A DNA stretch of 64,000 bases from an uncultured Oscillospiraceae bacterium (GTDB taxonomy: Bacteria; Bacillota; Clostridia; Oscillospirales; Oscillospiraceae): NCBI GenBank assembly GCA_904419145.1, contig CAJFQQ010000002.1, forward strand, positions 1 through 64,000, in the 5' to 3' direction. This document shows, piece after piece, positions 35,119 through 50,931 of this stretch; positions within the stretch are counted from its first letter, which is position 1, and the number at the start of each line of letters is the position of its first letter. The notes beneath the pieces are model-generated. The model worked only from the letters and a program-made list of their open reading frames with translations, was not told where the DNA came from and made no database searches. The translations under genes and the position numbers were made by a program.

Positions 35119-35880
35119 TCAATAAAGCAATGTAATATGATTGGCAGAAAGCCAATCCACCCATTCATCGTCCGGTCGCTGGTCTGTAATGACCACATCC
35201 ACCTGATCCAAGTCAAACAGTTTGGTAAATGCCAATTTTCCAAACTTTGTGTGGTCCACCAGCAGGAAAACTTTCTGAGACTGCCCTACCAGTAGCCGTT
35301 TGATCTCCGCCTCATCCTCATCGCTGTCAAAGGCACCTGTCCCCAGTTGAAGCCCCTTGCAGCTGACAAGGGCAATATCCATGTGGTAATCCCGGATCGT
35401 GTTGCGTGCAATCGCTCCCTGGAAGGAATACGATTTTTTGTTCAGCACACCCCCGGTAGACAGGATCTTGATTTTGGAATCCTCCAGCTCCCGGAGGATA
35501 TTGGCTGAGTAGGTCAACAGAAGCAGATCCTCACGGTTGCTGAGCAAATGGACAGCCTCCATTACAGTAGAGCTGGAATCTGCCCCAATGGTCACACCGC
35601 GCTTTGGAATCTGCTCGGCGACGATCCGAGCAATCGCCCGTTTCTCTTCCACATTGATCTGGGTACGGCGCATATAGCTGATACGGACCTCTGTATTGCC
35701 CATGTTCAGCACTGCGCCGCCGTAGGTCCGGGTCACCAGCCCCTCCCCCTCCAGCTTCTCCAGATCTCGCCGGATCGTCTCCTCTGTTACCTCAAACTGC
35801 TTGCTCAGATCAGAAACAACAACACGTTTTTCCGCTTTGACAATGGAACGGATGCTTTCGAGTCTGTTTTTTTGAGCCAT
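35119..35880 (-). CDS. DeoR-family sugar-phosphate-sensing repressor
   Basis: 253 residues starting MAQKNRLESIRSIVKAEKRV. N-terminal helix-turn-helix with VVVSDLSKQFEVTEETIRRD followed by LEKLEGEGLVTRTYGGAV, the DeoR signature; the C-terminal domain has the sugar-phosphate-binding fold (GADSSSTVMEAVHLL, STGGVLNKKSYSFQG, DEDEAEIKRLLV, DHTKFGKLAF). GAGGAGG lies about 12 bases upstream of the ATG at 35880. It closes the sugar catabolic block and is the natural regulator of 35969-48172. Confidence 0.93.
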   Translation of the reverse strand: MAQKNRLESIRSIVKAEKRVVVSDLSKQFEVTEETIRRDLEKLEGEGLVTRTYGGAVLNMGNTEVRISYMRRTQINVEEKRAIARIVAEQIPKRGVTIGADSSSTVMEAVHLLSNREDLLLLTYSANILRELEDSKIKILSTGGVLNKKSYSFQGAIARNTIRDYHMDIALVSCKGLQLGTGAFDSDEDEAEIKRLLVGQSQKVFLLVDHTKFGKLAFTKLFDLDQVDVVITDQRPDDEWVDWLSANHITLLY

Positions 35881-35968
35881 CTTTCCCTTTGTCCTCCTCG
35901 CATCTTGACGCATTCCATTATACAGAAAACTTGTTGTTATTTCAATAGGGTTTGGGGAACCGCCCATC

Positions 35969-36964
35969 TTAGCGGTCCAGGGCCTCCGCCATCTCGCGCA
36001 TCATCTGCACGTCCTCCGCGCTGAGATCAATGTCGGCGGCGTGGGTGTTGGCGCGGATCTGATCCGGGCTGGTGGCACCGCTGAGCAGGACCACCTTCTC
36101 GTCCTGAGCCAGGATCCAGGCCAGGGAGAGGTCCGCGATGGCGCAGTTGTACTTCTCGCACAGAGGCTTGAGCTGATCCAGGAAGTCAAACACCCGGGGC
36201 AGGTTCTCCGGCTGGAACCACTTCTTGGGGATCTGAGCGCCTACGGGCTTGTAGTCGCGGGGCAGCGCACCGCTGAGCAGACCCATCTCCAGGGGGGAGT
36301 ACGCCTGCAGCACGATGCCGTGCTTCTTGCAGATGGGCAGCAGATCCTGCTCCACAGCGCGGTCCAGGATGCTGTACTTGGCCTGGACGATGTCCAGATC
36401 GCCGTACTTCAGATACTCCTCCACCTGCTCGGGGGTCACATTGGCCGCGCCGATGGCGTGGATCTTGCCCTGGGCCTTCAGCTCATTGAGCAGCTCCATG
36501 GTCTCGCTGATGGGGGTGTAGTAGGGCTCCACCGCCTGCCAGTGGGACATGTACACGTCGATGTAGTCGGTGCCCAGGCGCTCCAGGCTCATGTCGATCT
36601 CGTGGAGGATGGAGTCCCGGGACAGGTTCTTGTAGAGCTGGGTATCGCCCACCTTGTTGAAGAGGGCACCCTTGCGGTCCCAGACGATACCGAACTTGGT
36701 GATGATGCACATGTCATCCCGGTTCATCTTCTTCAGGGCCTTGCCCACGATCCGCTCACTGTTGCCGAAGTTGTAGCCGGGAGCGGTGTCGATCATGTTC
36801 ACGCCGGCGCCGGGGCAGGCACAGATGGTCTCAATGCTCTTCTCCTCCGCCGCGGCCTGCTCCTCCGGGGTCTGGCCCCAGGCGGGACCGCCGCCGATGG
36901 CCCAGGTGCCGAGGCTCAGGCGGGATACCGGCTTATCCAGTGTACCAATCTTAATCGTCTTCAT
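35969..36964 (-). CDS. Aldo/keto reductase
   Basis: 331 residues, NADPH-type aldo/keto reductase barrel without an Fe-S tail. Catalytic residues: D in MIDTAPGYNFGNSE, K in CIITKFG, and H in VYMSHWQAV; the NADP-binding end reads LSGATSPDQIRANTHA. Start MKTIKIGTLDKPVSR at 36964 with GGAGG 8 bases upstream. It follows the class II aldolase by 69 bases with no terminator, so it could reduce an aldehyde made by the aldolases of this cluster (inference). Confidence 0.9.
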   Translation of the reverse strand: MKTIKIGTLDKPVSRLSLGTWAIGGGPAWGQTPEEQAAAEEKSIETICACPGAGVNMIDTAPGYNFGNSERIVGKALKKMNRDDMCIITKFGIVWDRKGALFNKVGDTQLYKNLSRDSILHEIDMSLERLGTDYIDVYMSHWQAVEPYYTPISETMELLNELKAQGKIHAIGAANVTPEQVEEYLKYGDLDIVQAKYSILDRAVEQDLLPICKKHGIVLQAYSPLEMGLLSGALPRDYKPVGAQIPKKWFQPENLPRVFDFLDQLKPLCEKYNCAIADLSLAWILAQDEKVVLLSGATSPDQIRANTHAADIDLSAEDVQMMREMAEALDR

Positions 36965-37033
36965 AGCGCGTTCCTCCATATATGAATTGTTGCCGCAGCC
37001 TGTGGATGCGGATGCTTCGCCCTGCCGGGCCGC

Positions 37034-37888
37034 TTATTTTTCAAACCAGCCCTGGGCCTTGCCGTTGCTGCCGAAGAGCATGATCTTGTTCTCTGCCCGG
37101 GCCTGGACGGCGTCGCGGACCTTGATGTTCAGGCCCTGGTATTTCTCATCCGGCGGGCAGGCGTGGATCGCATCCATGGCGGCCTCGCACAGCTCGGTGT
37201 GAATGTTGATCTTGGTGATGCCCAGGTCGATGGCGTGGCGGATATCCTCATCGCCGATTCCGGAGGCGCCGTGGAGCACCAGGGGGATGGACACGCTGTT
37301 GCGGACCTTCTCCAGAATGTCGAAGTTGATCTGCGGGGGCGCGGTATAGGCGCCGTGCTGGTTGCCGATGGCAATGGCCAGGGAGTCGATGCCGGTGCGC
37401 TCCACGAACTCGGCGGCCTGGCTGGGGTCGGTGTACATGTAGTGGGCCAGAGCCTCCTCATAGTTGGTCTCGGCGCCCACATGGCCCAGCTCAGCCTCCA
37501 CGGGGATGCACATGGGGTGGAAGCGGTCCACGACCTCCTTGGTCATGCGGATGTTCTCCTCAAAGGGGTAGGCGGAGCCGTCGATCATCAGGGAGTTGTA
37601 GCCGATATCAATGGCGTGGCTCACGATCTCATAGCTGCGGCCGTGGTCCCAGTGGATGGAGCAGGGCAGGGAGGTGGTGGTGGCGTAGGAGCGCATCATA
37701 TGGACGAAGTGGTTGATGTCGGTGTTTACCAGGAACCCGCTGCCGAAGGAGAGGATCACCGGGGACTGGAGCTTTTCACAGGCCTTCATCACGCCGGAGA
37801 GCATCTCCACGTTCCAGATGCAGAAGTTCGCCACGGCGTAGTGCTCTTTCTGCGCCTTCACCAACATGTCCTTTGTGGATACAAGCAT
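37034..37888 (-). CDS. Class II ketose-bisphosphate-type aldolase (first copy)
   Basis: 284 residues, zinc-dependent FbaA/GatY/KbaY family. It reversibly cleaves a ketose-1,6-bisphosphate-type substrate to DHAP and an aldehyde. Zinc and catalytic motifs: SIHWDHG with the catalytic Asp and first His, VEAELGHVG, GNQHGAY, LVLHGASGIGDEDI and KINIHTEL. The specificity residues differ from classical FbaA, so the sugar is unknown. It shares the cluster with a second such aldolase at 46374. GAGGTAAG precedes the ATG. Confidence 0.9.
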   Translation of the reverse strand: MLVSTKDMLVKAQKEHYAVANFCIWNVEMLSGVMKACEKLQSPVILSFGSGFLVNTDINHFVHMMRSYATTTSLPCSIHWDHGRSYEIVSHAIDIGYNSLMIDGSAYPFEENIRMTKEVVDRFHPMCIPVEAELGHVGAETNYEEALAHYMYTDPSQAAEFVERTGIDSLAIAIGNQHGAYTAPPQINFDILEKVRNSVSIPLVLHGASGIGDEDIRHAIDLGITKINIHTELCEAAMDAIHACPPDEKYQGLNIKVRDAVQARAENKIMLFGSNGKAQGWFEK

Positions 37889-37976
37889 ATTCTTACCTCA
37901 ATCTTTCCGTAAAGTTGTGGGTAGGTATGATGAAATGGATGTGAAAAGGACACCCAGTTCAAACAAAGTGGGATTG

Positions 37977-38006
37977 CCGGCCGCCCCGATCCACCGGGAC
38001 GGCCGG
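37977..38006 (-). other. Intercistronic hairpin
   Basis: CCGGCCGcCCCG/CGGGaCGGCCGG with one mismatch, between the FucA-type and FbaA-type aldolase genes; no T run follows. It may tune mRNA stability or partial termination. Confidence 0.5.
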
Positions 38007-38023
38007 ACTGTTTGGAAGCGGGA

Positions 38024-38662
38024 TCAGACCTCGATGTCCCGGGCCAGGATCCGGTCGATCTCGGACTGGGGGATATCAATGGTGGGGCCCAGAAGCTTTG
38101 CGATGCAGATCTCCTTGGCAAACTTCTCGGCGGCCTCCACGCGCTGGAAGGCCTTCTCCAGGGTAGAGCCGACGGCCAGAACGCCGTGGTTGCCCAGCAG
38201 AACCAGATTGCGGTTCTTCAGATAGGGAGCGGCCTGATCCAGGATCTCGCGGGTGCCGGGCTGGCCATAGGGGGCCACGGGGATATCCTTGAAGTGGAAC
38301 AGGATCTCCGGATGGCACTTCTGATCAATGGGCACATGGCACATGGCGTGGGCGGTGAGGAAGGGGGAGTGGCAGTGGATCACAGCATTGATGTCCGGGC
38401 GCAGCTCATAGGAGTTGTGGTGCATGATGGTCTCGGAGGAGGACTTCTTGGTGCCGTGGATCTGGTTGCCCTCCTCGTCAATGACGCAGATCAGGTCCTC
38501 GGTCAGGGTGCTCTTCCTGGTTCTGGCCGGGGTGATGTACAGGAGACCGTCCTGCTTGATGGACAGGTTCCCCTCATAGGTGTTGACCAGCTGGGCGGCC
38601 TCCATAGCCTTTGCGACGCGGATGATTTCTCGAATGACATCATAATCAATGGTGCGGCTCAT
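38024..38662 (-). CDS. Class II aldolase, FucA/AraD type
   Basis: 212 residues, the size of L-fuculose-1-phosphate aldolase. Zinc ligands are visible in INAVIHCHSPF (two His) and LLGNHGVLAVG (third His); the catalytic glutamate is in KKSSSETIMHH. NTYEGNLSIK and LLYITPARTRK match the phosphate-binding part. Acts on a ketose-1-phosphate to give DHAP and an aldehyde, or is an epimerase of the AraD type; length and position beside a kinase favour the aldolase. Starts at 38662 after GGAGGT; the FGGY kinase ends 5 bases upstream of it. Confidence 0.9.
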   Translation of the reverse strand: MSRTIDYDVIREIIRVAKAMEAAQLVNTYEGNLSIKQDGLLYITPARTRKSTLTEDLICVIDEEGNQIHGTKKSSSETIMHHNSYELRPDINAVIHCHSPFLTAHAMCHVPIDQKCHPEILFHFKDIPVAPYGQPGTREILDQAAPYLKNRNLVLLGNHGVLAVGSTLEKAFQRVEAAEKFAKEICIAKLLGPTIDIPQSEIDRILARDIEV

Positions 38663-38667
38663 TTTGC

Positions 38668-40161
38668 TTACCTCCAATTTCCTTTTCTCTTGTCGATGGT
38701 ATTTAATGTAAGCAGGGCCTTTTTCCACTTGCCTGTCGGATCAGGCCGGGGAAGAAAGGTGCTGCTTATAAACGAATGCTGGGCGGTCCGGCGGACCGAT
38801 GCCTCATCCGGCAGCTCTCCGGTGGCATAGAGCTGCATGAGGACGTTGCCGAGGGCGCTGGAGACGCCGCTTCCGGTGGTCACCGGGAGCTCCAGGGCGT
38901 CGGCCAGACGCTGCATCAGCAGCGCGTTGCGGATCCCGCCGCCGATGGCGGACAGCCCCTGGTAGGATCTGCCGGTGATCTGCCGGACCTGCTCCAGGGA
39001 CCACAGCGCTTGCAGCACAATGCTGTCAAACACGCAGTTTGCGATCTCGCCCATGGTGCGGGGGACCGTCTGTTCCGTCTCACGGCAGTAGGCGGCGATG
39101 CTCTCCAGAATGTTGCCGCCCTCCATCCGCAGGCACGGGTCACAGACGTTCAAATAGGTGGTGTTTTCGCCGGCGCTGCGGCAGGCGTCCATCACGTCGT
39201 CATAGCTGAGGGAGGGTCGCTCCCGCCGCCAGAGGGTCATGCACTGCTCAAAGAGCCACATGGCGTTGAAATCCCGGCACAGTGAATATCCAAAGGGGCC
39301 CCGCATGGTTTTGAAGGCGCCGTCGAAGCCCTGCTGGGAGATGATGGGCTGCGCCGTCCTGGTCCCGAAGATCAGCGACGTGCCGATGCTGGCAAAGACC
39401 TTGTTGTCATCCAGCCCGGGCGCCGCCAAAAGGGCCGCCTCCGTGTCGTGGCTGGTGACGGTAACGACCTGCAGCGCCCCGCCTACCTCCGCCGCAACAG
39501 CCTGCGTCAGCGGGTGGAGGCTCCTGCCGCCCTCCACCAGAGGGGGCAGGATCTTCGTAGGGATCCCCAGGCGCTCCATAACAGCGGTGTTCCACCGCCG
39601 TCCGGTGGCGTCCAGAAGATCTGCCACCGACGCCATGGATTCCTCCGCGGTGATCTGTCCTGTCAGATAGAAGTTCAGCAGATCCGGCAGGAGGAGCAGC
39701 CAGCGGCAGCGGTGAATGGGACTGTCCGGGTGCCCTGCGTCGTAAAACAGCTGCATCAGCACACGGATATCCGTGGGATAGACGCCACTGGAGCGGTAGA
39801 GCTCGTCAATGGGAACGACCTGCCCCATGCGGCTGAGGATCCCCTTCGTCCGTGTATCCTTATAAAAATAGGGGAGCTCCAGAAGGGCGAGGGAATCGTC
39901 CAGCAGGCCATAGCCGTTGCCGAAGGTATCAATTCCCATGGTCTGTGGCTGGATTCCTTTGCTTCGCAGATCGCGGATGCCCGTTTTGATCAATTCCAGC
40001 AGCTCCGGGACATTGATACGGACATGACCATCCACAGAAACCGGGCGGGTCGCCACGCTGTACTGATCCATGATCTCAACCTGGCCGTCGTGATATCGGG
40101 CAGCAAGGATCTTGGCACTGCTGCCGCCAATATCAATTGCCAAGCAAACTCTCTCCAGCAT
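38668..40161 (-). CDS. FGGY-family sugar kinase, rhamnulokinase-like
   Basis: 497 residues. N-terminal phosphate loop CLAIDIGGSSAKILA, GIDTFGNGYGLLD, and the second-domain SHDTEAALLAAP and IGTSLIFGTRT; the C-terminal ATP-site block is LSAIGGGIRNALLMQRLADA. These are closest to rhamnulokinase (RhaB)-type members. Together with the FucA-type aldolase downstream it would make a ketose-1-phosphate and cleave it. Promoter at 40219-40247 with repeated CTTTGAT words. Confidence 0.88.
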   Translation of the reverse strand: MLERVCLAIDIGGSSAKILAARYHDGQVEIMDQYSVATRPVSVDGHVRINVPELLELIKTGIRDLRSKGIQPQTMGIDTFGNGYGLLDDSLALLELPYFYKDTRTKGILSRMGQVVPIDELYRSSGVYPTDIRVLMQLFYDAGHPDSPIHRCRWLLLLPDLLNFYLTGQITAEESMASVADLLDATGRRWNTAVMERLGIPTKILPPLVEGGRSLHPLTQAVAAEVGGALQVVTVTSHDTEAALLAAPGLDDNKVFASIGTSLIFGTRTAQPIISQQGFDGAFKTMRGPFGYSLCRDFNAMWLFEQCMTLWRRERPSLSYDDVMDACRSAGENTTYLNVCDPCLRMEGGNILESIAAYCRETEQTVPRTMGEIANCVFDSIVLQALWSLEQVRQITGRSYQGLSAIGGGIRNALLMQRLADALELPVTTGSGVSSALGNVLMQLYATGELPDEASVRRTAQHSFISSTFLPRPDPTGKWKKALLTLNTIDKRKGNWR

Positions 40162-40218
40162 TGTTTTTCACGCCACCCCTTCCCAGCCGTACCGTATTTC
40201 CTCTGTTGTCTTTAGATT

Positions 40219-40247
40219 AGTATACACGCATTCTTTGATTTGGTCAA
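40219..40247 (-). promoter_or_regulatory. Promoter of the kinase-aldolase operon
   Basis: TTGACC and TATACT with a 17-base spacer on the minus strand. Confidence 0.78.
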
Positions 40248-40290
40248 CAAAAATCTTTGTTTCAAAAATATAATTTACTATTCAAAGATT
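40231..40290. promoter_or_regulatory. Cluster of CTTTGAT/ATCTTTG words, candidate DeoR operators
   Basis: Three related words stand within 60 bases: TTCTTTGATT (40231-40240), ATCTTTG (40253-40259) and CAAAGAT (40283-40289), the last two as an inverted pair. The first lies between the -10 and -35 boxes. CTTTGATTTG (40233-40242) recurs at 41464. Confidence 0.55.
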
Positions 40291-40311
40291 TCATTTCTTC
40301 ACAAGGCCGCT

Positions 40312-41184
40312 TTACCGCTCCCGTACCCCCGCTAAATCGAATAGTCGATGGATGCATCCAATGGCATCCCGTGCCGCATCTGCCGCATCCATCCGGCTGT
40401 ATCGCCCCACGGTAGGCTCCATGGGTTCTACGATCACCGGCCCACTGTAGCCTGCGCCCTCAAACAGCCGTAGGATCTCCACACAGTCCACCAAGTCGTT
40501 CTCGCCCGGCATGGCACGGATGTGGTCGTCCTGTTCCTCGCGGCTGCGGGAGGCATCTGGGTTGCACAGGTGCAGGTTGACAACCCGCTCCGGGTGTCGG
40601 ACTGCATAATAGAGATCGTCCTCCCGGCTGCCGCTGGTGTACCAATGGATGGTGTCGAAAACGAAGCCGATCTCCAGGGAGACAGCGTCTGCCAGGGACA
40701 GAACCCCCATCAATGAGTGGATAAAGGGATAGCGGAACTGGTCACGCACGGTTTTTGCCCCCATAAACTCCAGGCCGTACTGGATGCCCTCCTGGGAGAG
40801 GACGTGATAGATCTGGGACAGACGGGAGGCGTGCCAGTCGAAGTTGTCGCGGTAGGAGAATCGGTCGCTTCCGGGCCAGATATGGTTGTAGGCCCGGCTG
40901 CACCCGGCAAGCCTGGCCCGGTGTGCCCACTGACCGAACTCCACAACACGGTCTGCGAACTCCTCATCTGAAATTTTATACATATCCGCCGGCGCCATAA
41001 TCAATCCGAAGCGCATCCCTATGCTTTCCATCTTTTCCCTCGCCTCAGACGCCGCTTCATCTGTATCAAAAGCCCCTGCCGGTACCTCAATCCCGCGAAA
41101 TCCGCTCACCACAGCCGCATCCAGCAGAATCTGGAACGGATGATGATTCATGCCCATTGTGCGTGGATTCAAATTGGAATACAT
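40312..41184 (-). CDS. Sugar isomerase/epimerase (AP-endonuclease-2-like TIM barrel)
   Basis: 290 residues. The TIM-barrel motifs of the xylose-isomerase-like family are visible: GFRGIEVPAGAFD, MRFGLIMAPADM, YGLEFMGAKT with a metal-binding Glu, IGFVFDTIHWYTSG (Asp and His), VVNLHLCNPDA, MPGENDLVD and PVIVEPMEP. Members interconvert ketoses or aldoses and ketoses. GAGGAAAA precedes the ATG. It is the natural first step before the FGGY kinase. Confidence 0.88.
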   Translation of the reverse strand: MYSNLNPRTMGMNHHPFQILLDAAVVSGFRGIEVPAGAFDTDEAASEAREKMESIGMRFGLIMAPADMYKISDEEFADRVVEFGQWAHRARLAGCSRAYNHIWPGSDRFSYRDNFDWHASRLSQIYHVLSQEGIQYGLEFMGAKTVRDQFRYPFIHSLMGVLSLADAVSLEIGFVFDTIHWYTSGSREDDLYYAVRHPERVVNLHLCNPDASRSREEQDDHIRAMPGENDLVDCVEILRLFEGAGYSGPVIVEPMEPTVGRYSRMDAADAARDAIGCIHRLFDLAGVRER

Positions 41185-41334
41185 CAGTTTTCCTCCTTAT
41201 TTGTAACCCTTGTACCATTTTTTACAAATATAACATCAATACAGATTATTCTTTCTGCAAAATGTTGCTTTCCAACTTTTTATATCACTACTTTAGTTTG
41301 GATGCAATAAGTTTTTCCGTCAAAATCGAATAAT

Positions 41335-41364
41335 TGTTGAAAATCAACATTTTACTGTGTTGAT
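41335..41364. promoter_or_regulatory. Palindrome with extra half-site in the divergent intergenic region
   Basis: TGTTGA-AAA-TCAACA (41335-41349) followed by a further GTTGAT (41359-41364). The 351-base region 41185-41535 between the isomerase and the importer operon is AT-rich and regulatory; I see no gene in it. Confidence 0.5.
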
Positions 41365-41408
41365 TTATGTAACAAACATAGAATTCACTTTTTAATAACA
41401 GAAAAAAC

Positions 41409-41437
41409 TTGCATTTCAGAAAAATATCTTCTATACT
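41409..41437 (+). promoter_or_regulatory. Promoter of the Liv-type importer operon
   Basis: TTGCAT and TATACT with a 17-base spacer, about 100 bases before the first ATG. Confidence 0.8.
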
Positions 41438-41446
41438 TTGGCTAAA

Positions 41447-41499
41447 CTTACACGACACCCAACCTTTGATTTGTGTAAGGAACCTGAGTGTGGTCACTC
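41447..41499 (+). promoter_or_regulatory. Importer leader with two hairpins and a CTTTGATTTG word
   Basis: The leader holds a hairpin CTTACAC/GTGTAAG (41447-41479) and a small GAGTG-TGGT-CACTC hairpin (41486-41499). CTTTGATTTG (41464-41473) is the same 10-mer as at the kinase promoter and is a candidate DeoR site. Confidence 0.5.
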
Positions 41500-41535
41500 A
41501 ACCGCGATCTTGTCAATACTATTTTGGAGGTAAAG

Positions 41536-42882
41536 ATGTCTATGAAGAAACTGATTTGTCTACTTCTGACAGCGGCCATGATGTTCTCTCTGGTCGCCTG
41601 CGGAGGGAACACCACCACCAACAACACCGCCGGCAACGGCAACACCAACAATTCCGGCACCACAGATGAGGGCGGCGACGCCGCCACCGGCGATACCATT
41701 AGAATCGGCGTGCTGACTCCGCTGACCGGCGCCAGCGCCCAGCTGGGCAACCAGGTTGCAGAGATCTATCAGATGGTCACCGATATCATCAACGAGGAGC
41801 ATCCCGAGCTGACCATGGCCATGGCCGCCAACGCCGGCATCCAGAGCATGGGCGGGGCGAAGCTGGAGCTGGTCATCGCTGACCACAAGAGCGACGCCAC
41901 CACCGCCGTATCCGAAGCCCGCCGCCTGATCTCCGAAGAGAATGTGGTTGCCATCTGCGGCGAGTTCACCAGCGCAATCGCCAAAGCCGTTGCAGTTGTC
42001 ACCGAGCAGTACCAGGTTCCTCTGGTAGCCTCCTGCTCCGCTGTAAGCCTGACTGACGGCACCAATAACTTCCAGTGGTTCTTCCGTTACGCCATCACCG
42101 ACGAGACCTACATCAAGGATACCTTCGACTTCCTGAACTACCTCAACGAGAACTATGATGCCGGCATCGAGACTGTGGCCCTGTTCTCCGAAGACAGCGA
42201 GTTTGGTGCCAATATCGTGCCTCTGGAAGAGAAGTATGCCGAAGAGTATGGTTATGAGATCGTTGAGACCATCAATTATTCCTCCAGCGCTACCAACCTG
42301 ACCTCTGAGGTCATGCGTATTAAAGAGGCCGATCCCGACGTACTGCTGATGTCCTCCTTTGTATCCGACGCCCTGCTGTTCTTCAACACCTGCAAGGAGC
42401 AGCAGTACACCCCCAACTTCATTATCGGCCAGCGGGGCGGCTTCATCCAGAGCGACTATCTGACCGCCATGGGCGATGAGAACAACTACATCTGCACCAC
42501 CGCCAGCTGGGGCTCCGACATTACCACCGCCGTGACCCAGGAGCTCGTGGAGCTGTGGGCCAACTCAGAGTACAACAGCGAGAAGGTCGCCCTGATGGAC
42601 AGCCACGTGAAGGACGTTATGAACCTGCTGTTCATCGCCATGGCCATTGAGCAGGCCGGCACCACCGAGAACACCGCCCTGCGGGAGGCTCTGCTGAACC
42701 TGGAGTATGATATGGACACCCTGATGATTCCCTGGAGCGGCATCGAGTTCAACGAGTATGGCCAGAACACCAAGGCCAACGGCTTCATCACCCAGTACTA
42801 TGACGGCGCTTACCGCACGGTGTACCCCGAGGCCGGCGCTTCCATGGAGCCCGTTTACCCCATGCCGGAGTTCGCCTATTGA
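41536..42882 (+). CDS. Liv-type ABC importer substrate-binding lipoprotein
   Basis: 448 residues. Signal peptide with lipobox SLVACGG, an Asn/Thr/Gly linker to about residue 50, then the type I periplasmic-binding fold of the LivJ/LivK family: IRIGVLTPLTGASAQLG, VVAICGEFTSAIAKAVAVV, VPLVASCSAVSL, FFRYAITDE and VLLMSSFVSDALLFF. Start MSMKKLICLL at 41536 with GGAGG upstream. The family usually binds branched-chain amino acids, but also urea, amides and aromatic acids. The sugar-catabolic genes in the same operon suggest a different ligand. Confidence 0.93.
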   Translation: MSMKKLICLLLTAAMMFSLVACGGNTTTNNTAGNGNTNNSGTTDEGGDAATGDTIRIGVLTPLTGASAQLGNQVAEIYQMVTDIINEEHPELTMAMAANAGIQSMGGAKLELVIADHKSDATTAVSEARRLISEENVVAICGEFTSAIAKAVAVVTEQYQVPLVASCSAVSLTDGTNNFQWFFRYAITDETYIKDTFDFLNYLNENYDAGIETVALFSEDSEFGANIVPLEEKYAEEYGYEIVETINYSSSATNLTSEVMRIKEADPDVLLMSSFVSDALLFFNTCKEQQYTPNFIIGQRGGFIQSDYLTAMGDENNYICTTASWGSDITTAVTQELVELWANSEYNSEKVALMDSHVKDVMNLLFIAMAIEQAGTTENTALREALLNLEYDMDTLMIPWSGIEFNEYGQNTKANGFITQYYDGAYRTVYPEAGASMEPVYPMPEFAY

Positions 42883-42968
42883 TGATTCCGGGGAGTACTG
42901 ACCCCAGCGACTGATTGACTGATTGAGATTAAGACACCTCAGAGATTTTCCCTGCACAGCAAAATCCT

Positions 42969-43009
42969 GGCAATGCCATCCCCGGGCATCGTGTGGGGAT
43001 GGCATTGCC
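42969..43009 (+). other. Intercistronic hairpin between binding protein and permease genes
   Basis: Perfect 15-bp stem GGCAATGCCATCCCC/GGGGATGGCATTGCC with an 11-base loop and no T run. As in malE-malF, it could protect the upstream message and lower permease expression. Confidence 0.75.
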
Positions 43010-43071
43010 CCCATTCGGGGAAATTCTGCACGGGTTTCAGACGTTGTTTTTGTTAGGAGGAGCCGCATTCC

Positions 43072-43932
43072 ATGACTGTATTTTTACAAGGTGTATACGA
43101 AGGCATCATCAACGGCTCGATCCTGGCGCTGATTGCGATGGGCATCGCTCTGGTATGGGGCGTTATGAATATCCTCAGCTTTTCTCAGGGCGAATTCCTG
43201 ATGCTGGGCATGTTCGTATCCTACTATGCCAATCGTTATTTGGGCCTGGATCCCATTGTGGCCATGCCGCTGTCCGCCGGGGCCCTGTTCCTGCTGGGCA
43301 TTGTGATCTACAAGCTGATCATCTCCCGGGCGCTGCGGGGACCGATCCTCTCCCAGCGGCTGATTACATTTGCCCTGAGCATGGTGCTGGTCTATTCCGC
43401 CCAGATGTTTTTTGGCGCGGAGTATAAACAGCTGGTCAACCCTGTGATTTTCTCCGGCACCATCGACCTGGGCTTCATCACCATTGCCAAGCAGAAGCTG
43501 GTGCCCTTTATCCTGGCGCTGCTGGTGGCCGGCCTGCTGTTCCTGTTCCTCAACCGCACCCGGATGGGCAAGGCCATCCAGGCCACCAGCATGGACCGCT
43601 ATGCCGCCGGCCTGGTGGGCATCAATCCCGACCGGTCCTACACCATCGCCTTTGCTATGGCCAGCGCCGTGGCCGGCGCCGCCGGCTGTGCCCTGACCTA
43701 TTACTACTATATGTTCCCCAACGTGGGCGCCACGTTCCAGCTGTGGGGCTTCATCGCGGTGGCCATGGGCGGCTTCGGCAGCGTGACCGGCGCTTTCCTC
43801 AGCGGGCTGGTCATGGGCCTGGCGGATACCCTTACCGGCCTGTATGTCAATACCGCTATCAAGTACATCGGCGTGTGCGTCGTATTCCTAGTCACGGTGT
43901 CTTTCCGTCCTAAGGGCATCTTCGGTAAGTAA
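43072..43932 (+). CDS. LivH-type ABC permease
   Basis: 286 residues with about eight membrane helices. Family markers: GIINGSILALIAMGIALVWG at the start, NILSFSQGEFLMLG, the cytoplasmic coupling loop AIQATSMDRYAAGLVGINPD, and AVAMGGFGSVTGAFLSG. AGGAGG lies 11 bases upstream of the ATG. First of two permease subunits; forms a heterodimer with the next gene product. Confidence 0.94.
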   Translation: MTVFLQGVYEGIINGSILALIAMGIALVWGVMNILSFSQGEFLMLGMFVSYYANRYLGLDPIVAMPLSAGALFLLGIVIYKLIISRALRGPILSQRLITFALSMVLVYSAQMFFGAEYKQLVNPVIFSGTIDLGFITIAKQKLVPFILALLVAGLLFLFLNRTRMGKAIQATSMDRYAAGLVGINPDRSYTIAFAMASAVAGAAGCALTYYYYMFPNVGATFQLWGFIAVAMGGFGSVTGAFLSGLVMGLADTLTGLYVNTAIKYIGVCVVFLVTVSFRPKGIFGK

Positions 43933-43949
43933 GGAGGGGGAGCATCAAT

Positions 43950-44945
43950 ATGAAAAAATTATCTTACAAAAAGCTCCTGTTGTGCGCCGGGATTCTGGTC
44001 ATTTTGATTGTGCTGCCCCTGATCTTCAACACTGCGTTTTCCCACCACATTATGACCATGATGTGCATTTGGGCCCTGTTGGGCATGGGCTGGAACTTCA
44101 TCGGCGGATATGCCGGCCAGATCTCCAACGGCCACGCTATCTATTACGCCTTTGGTGCCTATACCAACGCGATGTTGCTCCAGTGGTTCAACCTGTCCCC
44201 CTGGATTGCCATGTGGATCGGCTGCCTGCTGTCTGCCGGAATCGCCTTCCTGATCGGCAAGGGCCTGCTGCGCTTCCGGGGCCACGTGTTCGCCATTGCT
44301 ACTATGGCTGTAGCCGAGTGCGTGCGCCTGATCTTCATTAACACAAAAGCCATTGGCGGCGCCACCGGCGTGTATATCTTCAACGCCGAGCTGGATCCAG
44401 CTCTGTATATGCAGTTCACAGACACCAAGACCTATGTCTATCTGTATATGGCATTCGTTGTTGCTGTCCTGCTGTTTGTCCGCTGGCTGAACACCACCAA
44501 ATTCTGCTACTACCTGCGTGCCATCAACGGCAATGAAACCGCCGCTGAAAGCGCCGGCATCAATGCCGCCAACTATAAACTGTGGGCCTATATGCTCAGC
44601 GCCGCCATCGTCAGCCTGGCCGGCAGCCTCTATATGCAGTTCATGCGGTATACCGACCCCTCCATGATTCTGACCTCCAACATCTCCATGATGATCGTCC
44701 TGGTTACAGTTATGGGTGGCGTAGGCACTGTGTATGGGCCCTTGATCGGCGCTATTGTCCTGACCTATATCTCGGAGTATACCCGTGTCTATCTGAGCCA
44801 TTATAACGGCCTGGACATGGTTATCTATGGCGTTCTGGTCATCCTGATTGTTTTGTTTATCCCCGATGGTCTGATTTCCATTCCCGGCAGAATCCGCAAG
44901 CACCGGGAGCACAAGGCTGCAGTAAAGGAGGCGCCAGCAAAATGA
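43950..44945 (+). CDS. LivM-type ABC permease
   Basis: 331 residues, about ten membrane helices. Markers: MGWNFIGGYAGQISNGHAIY, the coupling loop YLRAINGNETAAESAGINAA and VTVMGGVGTVYGPLIGAIVL. It lacks a long N-terminal extension. The last four bases overlap the ATPase start (ATGA), so the two are translationally coupled. Confidence 0.94.
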   Translation: MKKLSYKKLLLCAGILVILIVLPLIFNTAFSHHIMTMMCIWALLGMGWNFIGGYAGQISNGHAIYYAFGAYTNAMLLQWFNLSPWIAMWIGCLLSAGIAFLIGKGLLRFRGHVFAIATMAVAECVRLIFINTKAIGGATGVYIFNAELDPALYMQFTDTKTYVYLYMAFVVAVLLFVRWLNTTKFCYYLRAINGNETAAESAGINAANYKLWAYMLSAAIVSLAGSLYMQFMRYTDPSMILTSNISMMIVLVTVMGGVGTVYGPLIGAIVLTYISEYTRVYLSHYNGLDMVIYGVLVILIVLFIPDGLISIPGRIRKHREHKAAVKEAPAK

Positions 44946-45673
44946 GCAACTATATTCTGCAAGTAAACGACGCCACCAAAAAATTCAGCGGCCTGATGGC
45001 TAACGAAGGCATTACCTTTGATGTAGGGGTGGGCGAAATTCTGGGACTTGTGGGACCTAACGGCGCCGGCAAGACCACCCTGTTCAACTCCCTCAGCGGG
45101 GTCCATCAGTTGACCCGCGGTACCATTACATTTGACGGTCAGGATATCACAAAGCTTAGCAGCCACCAGATCTGTAAGCTTGGAATCGGCCGTACCTTCC
45201 AAATCCCCCAGGCCATTGTGACCCTGTCTGTGGAAGAAAATGTGCTGATCGGCGCGCTGTGCCACACCAACAATATGAAGGTGGCGCGCAAGCACGCCCA
45301 TGAGACCATTGAGTTCTGCGGCCTGGCTGCTCTGGCCGACAAGCCGGCAGCCATCCTGAATGTGGCGCAGAAGAAACGTCTGGAGATCGCCCGAGCCTAT
45401 GCTACTGATCCCAAGCTGCTTCTTCTGGACGAGACTATGGCCGGGCTCACTGCCACTGAACGCGTAGAATCCATCCAGCTGATCCGCGAGATCAACAATC
45501 AAGGTGTCAGTATCGTGATGATCGAGCACAACATGGACGTGGTAATGAGTGTGTCCAACCGTGTCCTTGTGCTGGATGCCGGCAAGGTGCTGGCCCTCGG
45601 CTCTCCAGAGGAAGTCACCTCCAACGAGGCCGTGATTAACGCCTATCTGGGAGGAGGTAAGAAAGATGCTTAA
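44942..45673 (+). CDS. LivG-type ABC ATPase with altered signature motif
   Basis: 243 residues. Walker A GPNGAGKTTLFN, LivG-type insert region GIGRTFQIPQAIVTLSVEENV, Walker B LLLLDETMAGLTATE and H-loop IEHNMD. The ABC signature reads ILNVAQKKRLEIARA instead of LSxGQ: the serine and glycine are gone. Variants of this position are known in a subset of LivG proteins, and the partner LivF-type subunit keeps a canonical signature, so ATP sites may be asymmetric. Confidence 0.93.
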   Translation: MSNYILQVNDATKKFSGLMANEGITFDVGVGEILGLVGPNGAGKTTLFNSLSGVHQLTRGTITFDGQDITKLSSHQICKLGIGRTFQIPQAIVTLSVEENVLIGALCHTNNMKVARKHAHETIEFCGLAALADKPAAILNVAQKKRLEIARAYATDPKLLLLDETMAGLTATERVESIQLIREINNQGVSIVMIEHNMDVVMSVSNRVLVLDAGKVLALGSPEEVTSNEAVINAYLGGGKKDA

Positions 45674-46370
45674 GGTGGAACATGTGCAGACCGGATATGA
45701 CGGCGTCCCTGTCGTCCACGACGCATCTCTGCAGGTCAATCAGGGGACTATCGTGGCATTGGTCGGTTCAAACGGTTCCGGCAAGACCTCTCTGCTGCGG
45801 GCCATCACCGGGACTCTTCCGGTGATGCGCGGCAATATCACCTACAAGGGCCAGTCCATTGTGGGGATGAAGTCCTATAAGCTGCTGGATATGGGAATTT
45901 CCATGGTTCCTGAAGGCCGCCACCTGTTTGGCAAGATGTCCGTACGGGACAATCTGATGATGGGGGCCTACACTGTCCGGGACAAGGCTGAGATTGAAAA
46001 GCGCCTGAGGTTCGTCTTCCAACTGCTCCCCCGTGTGGAGGAGCGCCAGAAGCAGCAGGCAGACACTCTCTCCGGCGGTGAGCAGCAGATGGTGGCCATC
46101 GCTCGCGGGCTCATGGCGAGCCCGGAGCTTCTGATCCTGGACGAGCCCTCCCTGGGTTTGATGCCAAAGCTGGTGACGGAGATCTTTGAATTCATCCGGC
46201 GCATTAAGGATGCCGGCGTCACCATTATCATTGTGGAACAGAACGCTATGGCCACACTGGAGATGAGCGACTACGCCTATGTGATGCAGAACGGCGAAAC
46301 CATCCTGGAGGGCACCGGCCAAGATCTCCTGGCCGACGAGCAAGTGAAGAAAGCATATTTGGGAGGATAA
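45666..46370 (+). CDS. LivF-type ABC ATPase
   Basis: 234 residues. Walker A GSNGSGKTSLL, YVPEGR-like MVPEGRHLFGKMSVRDNL, signature TLSGGEQQMVAIARGL, Walker B LLILDEPSLGLMP and H-loop VEQNA. Overlaps the LivG-type gene by 8 bases and is followed 3 bases later by an aldolase gene, tying import to catabolism in one transcript. Confidence 0.94.
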   Translation: MLKVEHVQTGYDGVPVVHDASLQVNQGTIVALVGSNGSGKTSLLRAITGTLPVMRGNITYKGQSIVGMKSYKLLDMGISMVPEGRHLFGKMSVRDNLMMGAYTVRDKAEIEKRLRFVFQLLPRVEERQKQQADTLSGGEQQMVAIARGLMASPELLILDEPSLGLMPKLVTEIFEFIRRIKDAGVTIIIVEQNAMATLEMSDYAYVMQNGETILEGTGQDLLADEQVKKAYLGG

Positions 46371-46373
46371 ATC

Positions 46374-47201
46374 ATGCTTGTTACACTAAAGGAACTGCTG
46401 CAGCAGTATATGACCAGCGACAAGGCAGTCGGGGCCTTCAATGTCACCACCTACTGCGATGCCAAGCCTGTGATTACGGCAGCCGAGAAAAAGAATGCGC
46501 CTGTGATCGTCCAGGTAGGCGGCTTTGCCACCCGCTATATGGATCTGGAGCTGTGGGGCAAGCTGCTGGTGACCATGGCCGATCGTTCCCCGGTGCCTGT
46601 GTGCATCCATCTGGACCACTCCAAAGACGTGGAGGAGTGCCAGAAGGCCATTGACGCCGGTTTTTCCTCCGTGATGTATGACGGCTCCCAGCTGTCCTAC
46701 GAGGAGAACGTGCGCCTCACCAGCGAGGTGGTGCGCCGCGCCGCCCAGAAGGGTGTCAGCGTGGAGGGTGAGATCGGCTCCGTGGCCTATTCCGGCACTG
46801 ATGCTTACAAGGCCGAAGCCTCTGACCCCGATACTGTTGCCCGCTTTGTGGCCGATACGGGCGTTGACGCCGTGGCTGTGGCCGTGGGAACCCTGCACCG
46901 CATGGAGACCCAGGCTGCCCATCTGGACTTTGACCTGCTGCGTGCCATCCAGGCCAAAGTGGACATCCCTCTGGTGATCCACGGCTCCTCCGGCCTGTGC
47001 GACGAGGACTTCAAGCAGATGTGCGCTACCCATGTCACCAAGGTGAACATCGGCACCGCCCTGCGTATGGCCTTTGACAAGGGGCTGCGCACCGCCCTCA
47101 ACGACCACCCCGAGAGCAACGTGTTTACCGAGATCGCCCACATCCCCATGCAGTATGTGGAGGACAAGGTGATTGAAAAGCTGGGCCTCCTCGGCTTCTA
47201 A
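46374..47201 (+). CDS. Class II ketose-bisphosphate-type aldolase (second copy)
   Basis: 275 residues, FbaA/GatY/KbaY/IolJ family. Motifs: VGAFNVTTYCDAK, VCIHLDHSKDVEEC with the catalytic Asp and zinc His, VEGEIGSVAYSG, VAVGTLHRME, LVIHGSSGLCDEDF and VTKVNIGTALRMAF. It differs clearly from the copy at 37034, which suggests a different substrate or stereochemistry rather than a recent duplication. The start lies 3 bases after the LivF-type gene, with GGAGGATAA as ribosome site. Confidence 0.9.
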   Translation: MLVTLKELLQQYMTSDKAVGAFNVTTYCDAKPVITAAEKKNAPVIVQVGGFATRYMDLELWGKLLVTMADRSPVPVCIHLDHSKDVEECQKAIDAGFSSVMYDGSQLSYEENVRLTSEVVRRAAQKGVSVEGEIGSVAYSGTDAYKAEASDPDTVARFVADTGVDAVAVAVGTLHRMETQAAHLDFDLLRAIQAKVDIPLVIHGSSGLCDEDFKQMCATHVTKVNIGTALRMAFDKGLRTALNDHPESNVFTEIAHIPMQYVEDKVIEKLGLLGF

Positions 47202-47224
47202 TTCCGATCTGACAGGAGGACATC

Positions 47225-48172
47225 ATGGGTAATTTTGATGTCATTTGTGTGGGCAACTCCGCAGTGGACGTACCTCTTTGCCCGGTTGGCCCTGAGATTT
47301 TTTCCTACGACTCTTATCCCATTGACCGCATTATCCCCCAGGTGGGCGGCAGCGGCACCAACGTGTCCACCATCCTCTCCCGCCTGGGGAAGCGGGTGAA
47401 GCTCATCACGCTGCTGGGCGACGACATGCTGGGGGATTTCCTGATCCGCCACTGCCAGAGGAACGGTATCGACACCTCCTCCATCGCCCGCCGCAGTGAT
47501 ATCGACACGCCGCTGAGCGTGGGGCTGGTCCGCGCCGACGGTGAGCGGGGCTTTGTGGTCAGCAAGAGCAGCAGCACCTTCTCCTTCTGCGCGGAGGATG
47601 TGAACAGTGCGGATTTTGCCGGGGCAAAGGCCATGGTCTTTTCCAGCATTTTTATCATGCCGCGCTTTGACGACGCCGGTCTGACCAAGGTATTCTCCGA
47701 CGCGCAGAAGGCAGGCCTTGTGGTCTGCGCCGATATGATGCGCAGCCGGACCGGCCAGCGGATCGACGCCATTGCCACCGCGCTCTCCCATGTGGACTAC
47801 TTCTTCGCCAACTTCGAGGAGGCGGAGTTCCTGACCTCCCAGTCCGCCTACCACAGCATGTCCCAGGTCCTGCTTGACGCGGGCGTCAAGCACGTACTCA
47901 TCAAAAACGGGAAAGAGGGCTGCTATATCCGCGACAACGAGACAGAACAGCTCCTGCCCGCCTTTTTGAACGAACACCCGGTGGATACCATCGGCGCCGG
48001 AGATAACTTCGCGGCAGGCTTTGTCGCGGCACTGCTGGATGGCCTCACCTTCCCGGAGGCTGCCCGGTTTGCCAATGCCACTGCCGCCATCTCCGTAGGC
48101 GCTCCCGGCTCCACCAACGGTGTCCAGAGCAAGGAGCAGGTAGAGACCCTCCTCCGGCAGGCCTCTGTCTGA
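47225..48172 (+). CDS. PfkB-family sugar kinase
   Basis: 315 residues, ribokinase fold. Motifs: DVICVGNSAVDV, GGSGTNVSTILSRLG (substrate side), FFANFEEAEFL, and the C-terminal PfkB signature DTIGAGDNFAAGFVAALLDG with the catalytic Asp in GAGDNF. It follows the aldolase by 23 bases and is the last gene before a strong terminator. It would phosphorylate the sugar or the monophosphate handled by the aldolase. Confidence 0.92.
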   Translation: MGNFDVICVGNSAVDVPLCPVGPEIFSYDSYPIDRIIPQVGGSGTNVSTILSRLGKRVKLITLLGDDMLGDFLIRHCQRNGIDTSSIARRSDIDTPLSVGLVRADGERGFVVSKSSSTFSFCAEDVNSADFAGAKAMVFSSIFIMPRFDDAGLTKVFSDAQKAGLVVCADMMRSRTGQRIDAIATALSHVDYFFANFEEAEFLTSQSAYHSMSQVLLDAGVKHVLIKNGKEGCYIRDNETEQLLPAFLNEHPVDTIGAGDNFAAGFVAALLDGLTFPEAARFANATAAISVGAPGSTNGVQSKEQVETLLRQASV

Positions 48173-48213
48173 TCCCCTCCTTGTGAGTCTACCTACCTTT
48201 TCCCCTTCTAGGT

Positions 48214-48258
48214 CAGAGGCCGGAGGTCCAAAAAGGACCTCCGGCCTCTGGCCTTTTT
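48214..48258 (+). terminator. Terminator of the importer-aldolase-kinase operon
   Basis: 16-bp perfect stem CAGAGGCCGGAGGTCC/GGACCTCCGGCCTCTG with an AAAAA loop, then GCCTTTTT. Confidence 0.93.
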
Positions 48259-48385: not shown

Positions 48386-49147
48386 TTACTGGAAGTTGCG
48401 GATCTCGATGCCCTCCCTAGCAAAGACCTCGCGGATCTTCTGCACAAAGGCCAGGGCCTTGGGACCGTCGCCATGGACGCAGAGGGTGTCCCCCTTGATG
48501 TCCAGCTCCTTGCCGTTGATGGAGGTCACCTTACCCTCCTTTACCATGCGGACGCACCGCGCAATGGCGATGTTTTCATCGGTGATCATGGAGCCCTCCA
48601 TGGAGCGGGGCACCAGGGAGAGGTCGTCCATATAGGCCCGGTCTGCAAAAATCTCGCTCTTGGCCACCAGCCCCATGTTCTCCGCCTCCTCGCCCAGCAC
48701 GGCACCGGCGCAGTAGTAGATCATGATGCTCTTGTCGATCTCGCATACCGCCTCGCAGATGGCCCGGGACACCTCCCGGTCATACTGGCAGAGGTTGCCC
48801 AGGGCCCCGTGGGGCGCCACGTGCTGGAGCTTCATCCCGTGCCCGGCCAGGAAGGCCTGGAGGGCGCCGATCTGGTACTTCATGTAGTTTTTCACCTCAA
48901 TGGGCTTGAGCACCATTTTCCGCCGGCCAAAGCCCAGCAGGTCCGGATATCCCGGGTGTGCGCCCACGGCCACGCCACGGGCCGCGGCGGCCTTCACCGT
49001 GGTGTCCATCACCATGGGATCGCCGGCGTGAAAGCCGCAGGCCACATTGGCGGAGGTGACATATTTGATGATTTCCTCGTCGCCGCCGATCTTATAGGCG
49101 CCGAAGCTCTCGCCCATATCGCTGTTCAAGTCGATCTGATAAGCCAT
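48386..49147 (-). CDS. pxpA: 5-oxoprolinase subunit A (LamB/YcsF family)
   Basis: 253 residues. With PxpB and PxpC it converts 5-oxoproline (pyroglutamate) to glutamate using ATP. Family markers: QIDLNSDMGESFGAY at the start, SANVACGFHAGDP, GVAVGAHPGYPDLLGFGRR, HVAPHGALGN, EIFADRAYMDD, LVPRSMEGSMI and LCVHGDGPKAL. Start at 49147 with GAAGGAGG 8 bases upstream. Last gene of a four-gene operon read away from a LysR regulator. Confidence 0.95.
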   Translation of the reverse strand: MAYQIDLNSDMGESFGAYKIGGDEEIIKYVTSANVACGFHAGDPMVMDTTVKAAAARGVAVGAHPGYPDLLGFGRRKMVLKPIEVKNYMKYQIGALQAFLAGHGMKLQHVAPHGALGNLCQYDREVSRAICEAVCEIDKSIMIYYCAGAVLGEEAENMGLVAKSEIFADRAYMDDLSLVPRSMEGSMITDENIAIARCVRMVKEGKVTSINGKELDIKGDTLCVHGDGPKALAFVQKIREVFAREGIEIRNFQ

Positions 49148-49161
49148 TTGCTGTTCCTCCT

Positions 49162-50178
49162 TCAACATTCTTCCACCTGGATGGTAAAGGTCTGCCCGTT
49201 CACCTGTACCCGATAGGTCCGCCCCACCGGCTCCGGCGCCTCCATCTGCTGCTGCAGTGCCGCCAGCTCCCTGCGCCAGTCGGCGTACAGCTGCTGGGCC
49301 TCGTCCACAGAGACCTTCTCAAAGCGGATCTGGTCCCCGGCCTTGCTCTGCCCGATCACAGGCAGATCCACGGTGATGACCGTGGCGATCTTGGTGTAGC
49401 CCCCAACGGTCTGGTGGTCCGCCATCATGATGATGGGGTGGCCGTCGGAGGGGACCTGGACGGAGCCAATGGCGATCCCGTCGGAGATGATATTGCCGTC
49501 GGTCTTGTGGGCCACCACAGGGCCCTCCAGCCGGTAGCCCATGCGGTCAAAATCCTTGCCCACGGTGTAGGTGCCGCACAGGAAATCCGCGATCCCCTGT
49601 TCCGTGAAGCGGTCGTCCTGGGGGCCCAGGATGACCCGCACCGTCCGGGGGCCGCTCTCGATGGCCGGTGCCTCCAGGCGGCGACGGGCCAGATTGGGCA
49701 GGCTGGCCACCGTGCTCCGGAGCGGGAGCTCGTCCCCCTTCTCCAGACGGCGGCCCTGATACCCGCCGATCTTGAAGCGGGGCAGGGTGGAGCGGCTCCC
49801 CAGCACCTGGGGGATGTCCAGGCCGCCGGCAAAGGCCATATAGGCCCGGCAGCCGCTGACCGGCGCGCCGAAGGAGACCGTATCCCCCGCTTTCATCGCC
49901 AGAGCGCGGTAGGTCTCCGCGCTCTCGCCGTTGACGCGCAGAGACAGGTCCGCGCCGGTGACGGCGATCACCGCGGGACTGGTAAAGCGCAGCGTCGGCC
50001 CCAGCAGGGTGATCTCCAGCGCCGCCTCATTGGGGTCGTTTCCCACCAGCACGTTGGCGGTCTGGAAGGCGCGCTGGTCCATGGGACCGGAGGTGGACAG
50101 GCCGTATTGCTCATAGCCGAAGCGGCCGATGTCCTGGACGGTGGTCAGGACACCGCCATTTTCTACGATCACACCCAT
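49162..50178 (-). CDS. pxpC: 5-oxoprolinase subunit C
   Basis: 338 residues, KipA/AHS2 family. Starts MGVIVENGGVLTTVQDIGRFGYEQYGLSTS-like (TTVQD and GRFGY are the family signature), continues with GPMDQRAFQTANVLVGND, AITGADL-type AVTGADLSL, SDGIAIGSVQVPSDGHPIIMM and ADHQTVGGYTKIA. It lies between pxpB and pxpA with gaps of 3 and 14 bases. Confidence 0.94.
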   Translation of the reverse strand: MGVIVENGGVLTTVQDIGRFGYEQYGLSTSGPMDQRAFQTANVLVGNDPNEAALEITLLGPTLRFTSPAVIAVTGADLSLRVNGESAETYRALAMKAGDTVSFGAPVSGCRAYMAFAGGLDIPQVLGSRSTLPRFKIGGYQGRRLEKGDELPLRSTVASLPNLARRRLEAPAIESGPRTVRVILGPQDDRFTEQGIADFLCGTYTVGKDFDRMGYRLEGPVVAHKTDGNIISDGIAIGSVQVPSDGHPIIMMADHQTVGGYTKIATVITVDLPVIGQSKAGDQIRFEKVSVDEAQQLYADWRRELAALQQQMEAPEPVGRTYRVQVNGQTFTIQVEEC

Positions 50179-50181
50179 CGC

Positions 50182-50910: not shown

Positions 50911-50931
50911 CCGGGCCCAGCCTCCCTTCCG

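Follow-up and report, generated by a model that had tools for sequence, protein, structure and literature searches.

A Liv-type importer and Ydj-type sugar-phosphate cleavage enzymes encoded in one conserved block in uncultured Oscillospiraceae

An importer of the amino-acid type and a set of sugar-phosphate cleavage enzymes are one inherited unit in an uncultured Oscillospiraceae bacterium. They are encoded by a block of 13 genes at positions 35119-48172 of the window, the stretch of 64,000 nucleotides analyzed here (assembly GCA_904419145.1, contig CAJFQQ010000002.1, positions 1 to 64,000). The importer is of the HAAT or Liv type, with a Peripla_BP_6 binding protein, LivH and LivM permeases, and LivG and LivF ATPases encoded in one operon, and several of the other proteins are relatives of Ydj proteins of Escherichia coli. 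The block is read here, with modest confidence, as a catabolic module complete in itself. Its substrate would be an acidic polyhydroxy compound, a sugar acid resembling a uronate or ulosonate, that enters through the HAAT importer and is broken down by Ydj-type cleavage. The case for an acidic polyhydroxy ligand comes from the substrate preference of YdjH and YdjI, the kinship of one of the class II aldolases (Ald2), the loss of an amine-binding glutamate from the binding protein with the carboxylate site kept, and the carboxylate ligand in the nearest protein structure. The literature searched, a limited library, contained no cluster in which a Liv-type importer is combined with this set of enzymes.

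Conservation and organization of the block

The gene order of the block is conserved in related species. Binding proteins with 83-84% identity to that of the window are found in three further species of the genus (G004, G006, and G007). G006 and G007 have all 13 genes collinear with the window (loci L028 and L029), and in G004 the block is split over two contigs (L030 and L127), with the break between the isomerase and the binding protein. Every gene is under purifying selection, with dN/dS values of 0.05-0.27. The neighbors outside the DeoR regulator and outside the PfkB kinase in the sister species differ from those in the window, so the conserved unit extends from DeoR to PfkB. This bears out a preliminary description of the window, which had tied the importer to the sugar-cleavage enzymes. 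That unrelated operons are adjacent by chance is extremely improbable, because the same 13 genes, all under purifying selection, are found in the same order between different flanks in the sister species. What can be said for chance is that distant homologs of the importer have other neighbors: in all cases seen at 83-84% identity the importer is with the aldolases, but at 30-39% identity it is found elsewhere.

The distribution of the block within the genus is patchy. In an rpoB comparison, G003 is the nearest relative of the window genome and G009 that of the three sisters, and neither G003 nor G009 carries the block. A close importer and Ald1, the YdjI relative, were not found in the seven other members of the genus. 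Among 397 other genomes sampled from the phylum, none has Ald1 at that level of identity. A scan of named organisms with the binding protein returned only the three sister metagenome-assembled genomes (MAGs), which are uncultured Oscillospiraceae, and two trivial partial matches. The rpoB of the window genome itself (G000:C59:7170-8288; L144, L146, and L147) reads as three fragments in changing frames, probably due to assembly or sequencing error.

The 13 genes form two divergent operons, with six genes on the minus strand and seven on the plus strand, and a common region of 303 bases lies between them (Table 1). According to the preliminary description, the Liv importer shares an operon with a class II aldolase and a PfkB kinase, at gaps of 3 bases (LivF to Ald2) and 23 bases (Ald2 to PfkB), and is back to back with genes for an isomerase, an FGGY kinase, a FucA-type aldolase, a second class II aldolase, a reductase, and a DeoR regulator. 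Open reading frame and family searches agree with its coordinates, gaps, and family assignments, and all of the genes are intact. On the other strand, DeoR and the aldo/keto reductase are separated by one base, and the FGGY kinase and FucA-type aldolase genes overlap.

The region between the operons contains likely control elements. The promoter of the importer operon is TTGCAT-17-TATACT, and its hexamers are identical in all four species. A palindromic pair of the form GTTGN5CAAC is found at 41264-41276 and 41336-41348. The two sites, GTTGCTTTCCAAC and GTTGAAAATCAAC, are mutually complementary and for the most part conserved in the sisters, and the arm spacing of 59 bases is equal in the window and in L028. 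These palindromes are candidate operators to which the DeoR protein may bind. A search of the ydj intergenic regions in E. coli and Klebsiella gave no convincing counterpart. The terminator-like hairpin past PfkB has 20 pairs, and another such hairpin ends the opposing pxp operon.

Table 1. Coordinates of the block, its control elements, and the adjoining operon in the window
Feature	Position	Strand	Remarks
DeoR-family regulator, YdjF relative	35119-35967	-	49% identity to E. coli and Klebsiella YdjF
Aldo/keto reductase, YdjG relative	35969-36979	-	NCBIfam NF049922; 60% identity
Ald1, class II aldolase, YdjI relative	37034-37888	-	61% identity; HWDHGRS stretch; metal His kept
FucA-type class II aldolase (Aldolase_II fold)	38024-38728	-	Metal His and catalytic Glu, by inspection
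FGGY kinase, rhamnulokinase/fuculokinase type	38668-40161	-	Overlaps the FucA-type aldolase gene
Xylose-isomerase-like TIM barrel, IolI/ketose 3-epimerase fold (PF01261)	40312-41184	-	Likely metal set invariant
Divergent regulatory region, common to both operons	41185-41487	.	Promoter and palindromic site pair
Lipoprotein-type substrate-binding protein, HAAT/Peripla_BP_6	41488-42882	+	Nearest structure 8WCH
LivH-type permease	43072-43932	+
LivM-type permease	43950-44945	+
LivG-type ATPase	44942-45673	+
LivF-type ATPase	45666-46370	+
Ald2, class II aldolase	46374-47201	+	Relatives adjoin iolC; His-Arg where Ald1 and YdjI have His-Gly
PfkB kinase, YdjH relative	47225-48172	+	45-46% identity
Strong terminator-like hairpin, end of importer operon	48210-48254	+
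PxpA-PxpC-PxpB-RraA-like operon	48386-51612	-	pxpB-pxpC-pxpA part at 48386-50910

Ydj-type enzymes and the second branch

Relatives of YdjF, YdjG, YdjH, and YdjI are all present together in the block, with 45-61% identity. Ald1 matches E. coli YdjI (PDB 6OFU) with an E value of 3.5e-107, compared to 8.9e-58 for the next structure, and the active-site stretch HWDHGRS is common to both. YdjH is the best match of the PfkB kinase. The reductase scores above the cut-off of the NCBIfam equivalog for YdjG (571.7 versus 550), and the YdjF proteins of E. coli and Klebsiella are the best matches of the DeoR protein among plasmid-collection records. In RefSeq, YdjH is named L-glycero-L-galacto-octuluronate kinase and YdjI octuluronate-1-phosphate aldolase. 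YdjH and YdjI of E. coli prefer long-chain sugars with a carboxylate end, and the best substrate of YdjI is not known in nature (PMC9602453). The ydjEFGHIJKL cluster of E. coli K-12 resembles the block in having a DeoR regulator, an aldo/keto reductase, a PfkB kinase, and a class II aldolase. However, it has the putative MFS transporters YdjE and YdjK for uptake and two zinc dehydrogenases, YdjJ and YdjL, none of which are found among the 13 block genes. The block has a Liv-type ABC importer instead, and it adds a second class II aldolase and the branch described below.

The isomerase, the FGGY kinase, and the FucA-type aldolase are a second branch. In the TIM-barrel isomerase E139, D177, H205, and E253 are invariant, and they are likely the full metal set. 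A TIM-barrel relative with 36% identity is found in G074 (L125, 7748-9480), where it adjoins a PfkB relative with 30% identity beside a heparinase-II/III-like protein; this isomerase/PfkB pair may be recurring in a uronate-related setting. The second branch has features in common with L-fucose and L-rhamnose catabolism, as the FGGY kinase is rhamnulokinase/fuculokinase-like, an FGGY kinase and a FucA-type aldolase are also found there, and FGGY, FucA, and DeoR are again combined in a plasmid cluster for L-fucose. The block could thus encode a pathway for a neutral sugar of the deoxy or pentose type, resembling L-fucose or L-rhamnose, with a recruited HAAT importer and with the Ydj-type genes acting on the same sugar. 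Several results make a neutral sugar rather improbable. The kinase scores 261 and 96.5 bits against cut-offs of 528 and 471 for the kinase equivalogs of these pathways, and the FucA-type aldolase scores 77 against a fuculose-phosphate aldolase cut-off of 400. No FucI- or RhaA-type isomerase is present in the block, where a small IolI-like TIM barrel of PF01261 is found instead, so neither the isomerase nor an equivalog-level kinase or aldolase of the L-fucose and L-rhamnose pathways is encoded. In addition, the closest structural relatives of the importer have carboxylate ligands, and carboxylates are preferred by YdjH and YdjI (PMC9602453).

Ald2 is related to aldolases of inositol clusters. 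On named replicons, several genes for Ald2 relatives adjoin iolC in such clusters or adjoin a PfkB gene. Like these relatives, Ald2 lacks the glycine that follows the active-site histidine in Ald1, YdjI, and aldolases linked to the phosphotransferase system. In the inositol pathway IolC acts on an acid sugar and the IolJ-type substrate is an acid, and by analogy the kinship of Ald2 to the iolC-linked aldolases is a hint that its substrate may also be an acid. The IolC/IolJ kinase-aldolase pair of myo-inositol catabolism likewise has a PfkB kinase beside a class II aldolase with the motif lacking glycine. However, myo-inositol clusters have IolG, IolD, IolE, and IolB, which the block lacks, and the PfkB kinase of the block is nearer to YdjH than to the IolC structures.

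The best structure matches of Ald2 are 8Q57 and 8Q58, presumably sulfo-sugar aldolases, and the sulfo-EMP2 pathway of sulfoquinovose degradation was considered on the basis of this match. In sulfo-EMP2 a PF01116 aldolase cleaves a ketose 1-phosphate to dihydroxyacetone phosphate (DHAP), which is a likeness to the block, but the kinase SqiK belongs to PF00365 and SqvD is modeled on FucI (PMC9594981). The block instead has a PfkB kinase, an FGGY kinase, and an isomerase of PF01261, and therefore sulfo-EMP2 was rejected.

The ligand of the binding protein

The binding protein has a carboxylate site but no counterpart of an amine-binding glutamate. In an alignment with E. coli LivJ, the carboxylate-binding residues Ser79 and Thr102 correspond to Ser162 and Ser184. 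LivJ Glu226, which is taken here to be the amine-binding residue, aligns with Gly317, beside Arg316, and the block protein has no acidic counterpart. D294 was rejected as a counterpart because it aligns with LivJ residue 205, not 226. Several positions of the hydrophobic LivJ pocket are changed as well, including Tyr18 to Leu and Phe276 to Ser. Judging by the alignment, neither the amine-binding glutamate nor the hydrophobic side-chain pocket of a Leu/Ile/Val-specific importer is present. With the glutamate lost and the carboxylate site kept, Leu/Ile/Val are disfavored as ligands, and a carboxylate that lacks a charged alpha-amine is favored. The E. coli LivJ/LivK-HMGF system has the same five-component HAAT architecture, but its permeases and ATPases are only 28-44% identical to those of the block. 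The unusual polar ligand proposed in the preliminary description is therefore probably acidic, given also the preference of YdjH and YdjI, and its suggestions of a sulfo- or amino-sugar have no positive support.

Among proteins of solved structure, the closest relative of the binding protein in both fold and sequence is SAR11_0655. A model of the block protein (mean pLDDT 86.6) matches the SAR11_0655 structure, 8WCH, with a Z score of 50.7, an rmsd of 2.3 over 391 residues, and 32% identity in the structural alignment, and the next match has a Z score of 40.2. 8WCH contains co-purified L-pyroglutamate. This raises the main rival explanation, in which the importer supplies L-pyroglutamate (5-oxoproline) to the adjoining PxpBCA 5-oxoprolinase and is in a sugar operon by co-option or coincidence. 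The pxp genes begin only 214 bases past PfkB in the window, and the gene set recurs in the three sister species. All four carriers of the block have PxpA, and it was found in no other of the seven members of the genus (Fisher p 0.003), though rpoB places carriers beside non-carriers and the count is limited by the 76-93% completeness of the non-carrier MAGs. On plasmids of Alphaproteobacteria, genes for homologs with 34-35% identity lie beside those for D-glutamate cyclase and 5-oxoprolinase. Nevertheless, transport of pyroglutamate is unlikely. Separate terminators divide the importer and pxp operons, in G004 the pxp genes are on another contig with other neighbors, and in all three sisters they follow a gene for a DAACS-type symporter. 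The symporter gene is absent from the window, and a close homolog is also absent from the window genome. With pxp nearby or not, the Liv genes keep their place with the aldolase genes. SAR11_0655 is also only 34% identical to the block protein and differs in gene context and pocket: at position 291 the window group has Phe, where 8WCH and 30 of 31 other homologs have Tyr, Phe replaces the Tyr of the 8WCH clade at 160 as well, and the residues aligned with LivJ pocket positions differ at 160, 161, 182-184, and 291. The terminator of the pxp operon and its separate location in the sisters rule it out as a physical part of the unit. The co-occurrence of PxpA with the block is a real warning for the assignment of the ligand, although it is weakened by the terminator, the location in G004, and the DAACS symporter. 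The pxp operon also has an aminotransferase neighbor and a divergent LysR gene (51739-52659, plus strand).

A ligand that conjugates a sugar to pyroglutamate or another amino acid would unite the pyroglutamate-binding relative, the co-occurrence of PxpA, and the sugar enzymes, with the sugar half entering the block pathway and the 5-oxoproline half going to PxpBCA. A conjugate is very unlikely, as no glycosidase, FrlB-like deglycase, or amidase is found among the 13 block genes and pxp is unlinked to the block in the sisters.

Other relatives of the importer are found in different settings. The closest outside the block group is in G009 (LivH 60%, binding protein 37-39% identity). Its locus (L031, G009:C9, 7976-19934) has a SorC-type regulator, RidA, an M29-like protein, two PEP-hydrolase-like proteins, and a RuBisCO-like protein that is under all NCBIfam cut-offs and nearest to MtnW; the importer half occurs again in G1140 (L158). 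This gene set is possibly an undescribed pathway. More distant importers adjoin genes for lactate-racemase-like, M24/M29-like, D-glutamate cyclase, and 5-oxoprolinase proteins, and no block-type aldolases were found beside distant relatives in the loci examined. In L091, L097, L100, and L104, genes of the nickel-dependent lactate-racemase family lie no more than about 60 bases from those of 8WCH-clade Liv importers, which suggests hydroxy-acid ligands in that clade.

A proposed pathway and its implications

The favored sugar-acid module would work as follows. The importer would bind its ligand through the carboxylate and take it up, and the TIM-barrel enzyme would isomerize or epimerize it to ketoses. 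The YdjH-like PfkB kinase and the FGGY kinase would phosphorylate these, most likely at O1. The aldolases, each selective for different stereoisomers, would then cleave the ketose phosphates to DHAP and an aldehyde, which the YdjG-like reductase would reduce. The YdjF-like repressor may sense an intermediate and act at the palindromes between the operons. We infer both the order of the steps and the pairing of the two kinases with the three aldolases. The scheme of isomerization, phosphorylation, and cleavage in the preliminary description is retained, but the presence of two kinases and three aldolases points to branches that run in parallel and not to one linear path. Neither these branches nor the kinship to E. 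coli ydj and to a pyroglutamate-binding protein had been foreseen. Tentatively, a branch of the HAAT family may now be devoted to the import of sugar acids and firmly tied to an enlarged Ydj pathway, in which two kinase/aldolase branches cleave epimeric ketose-acid phosphates.

Several points weigh against a sugar-acid module. The distant relatives of the importer (30-39% identity) are all in other contexts, several of them tied to 5-oxoproline. Ald1 has Ile at the Arg position of the YdjI stretch LMRDAS and may therefore act on a different substrate from YdjI, whose own natural substrate is not known. The block is found in only about two independent lineages, as the three sister species are mutually close. 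Finally, the rarity of the palindrome in the window does not test it independently, because it was noticed in the very region for which it is claimed.

The binding protein may provide a route to the substrate of Ydj-type pathways. The E. coli ydj enzymes have been characterized with the natural substrate not known, and here the ydj core is fixed to an importer with a binding protein. Binding proteins can be screened directly, and therefore the ligand of the protein encoded at 41488-42882 would test what a Ydj-type pathway degrades. The same ligand would test whether HAAT importers extend to carbohydrate acids. The block suggests that an importer family of the amino-acid type also takes up acidic sugars. 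If this is true, knowing the ligand would give a clue to what E. coli ydj degrades in nature.

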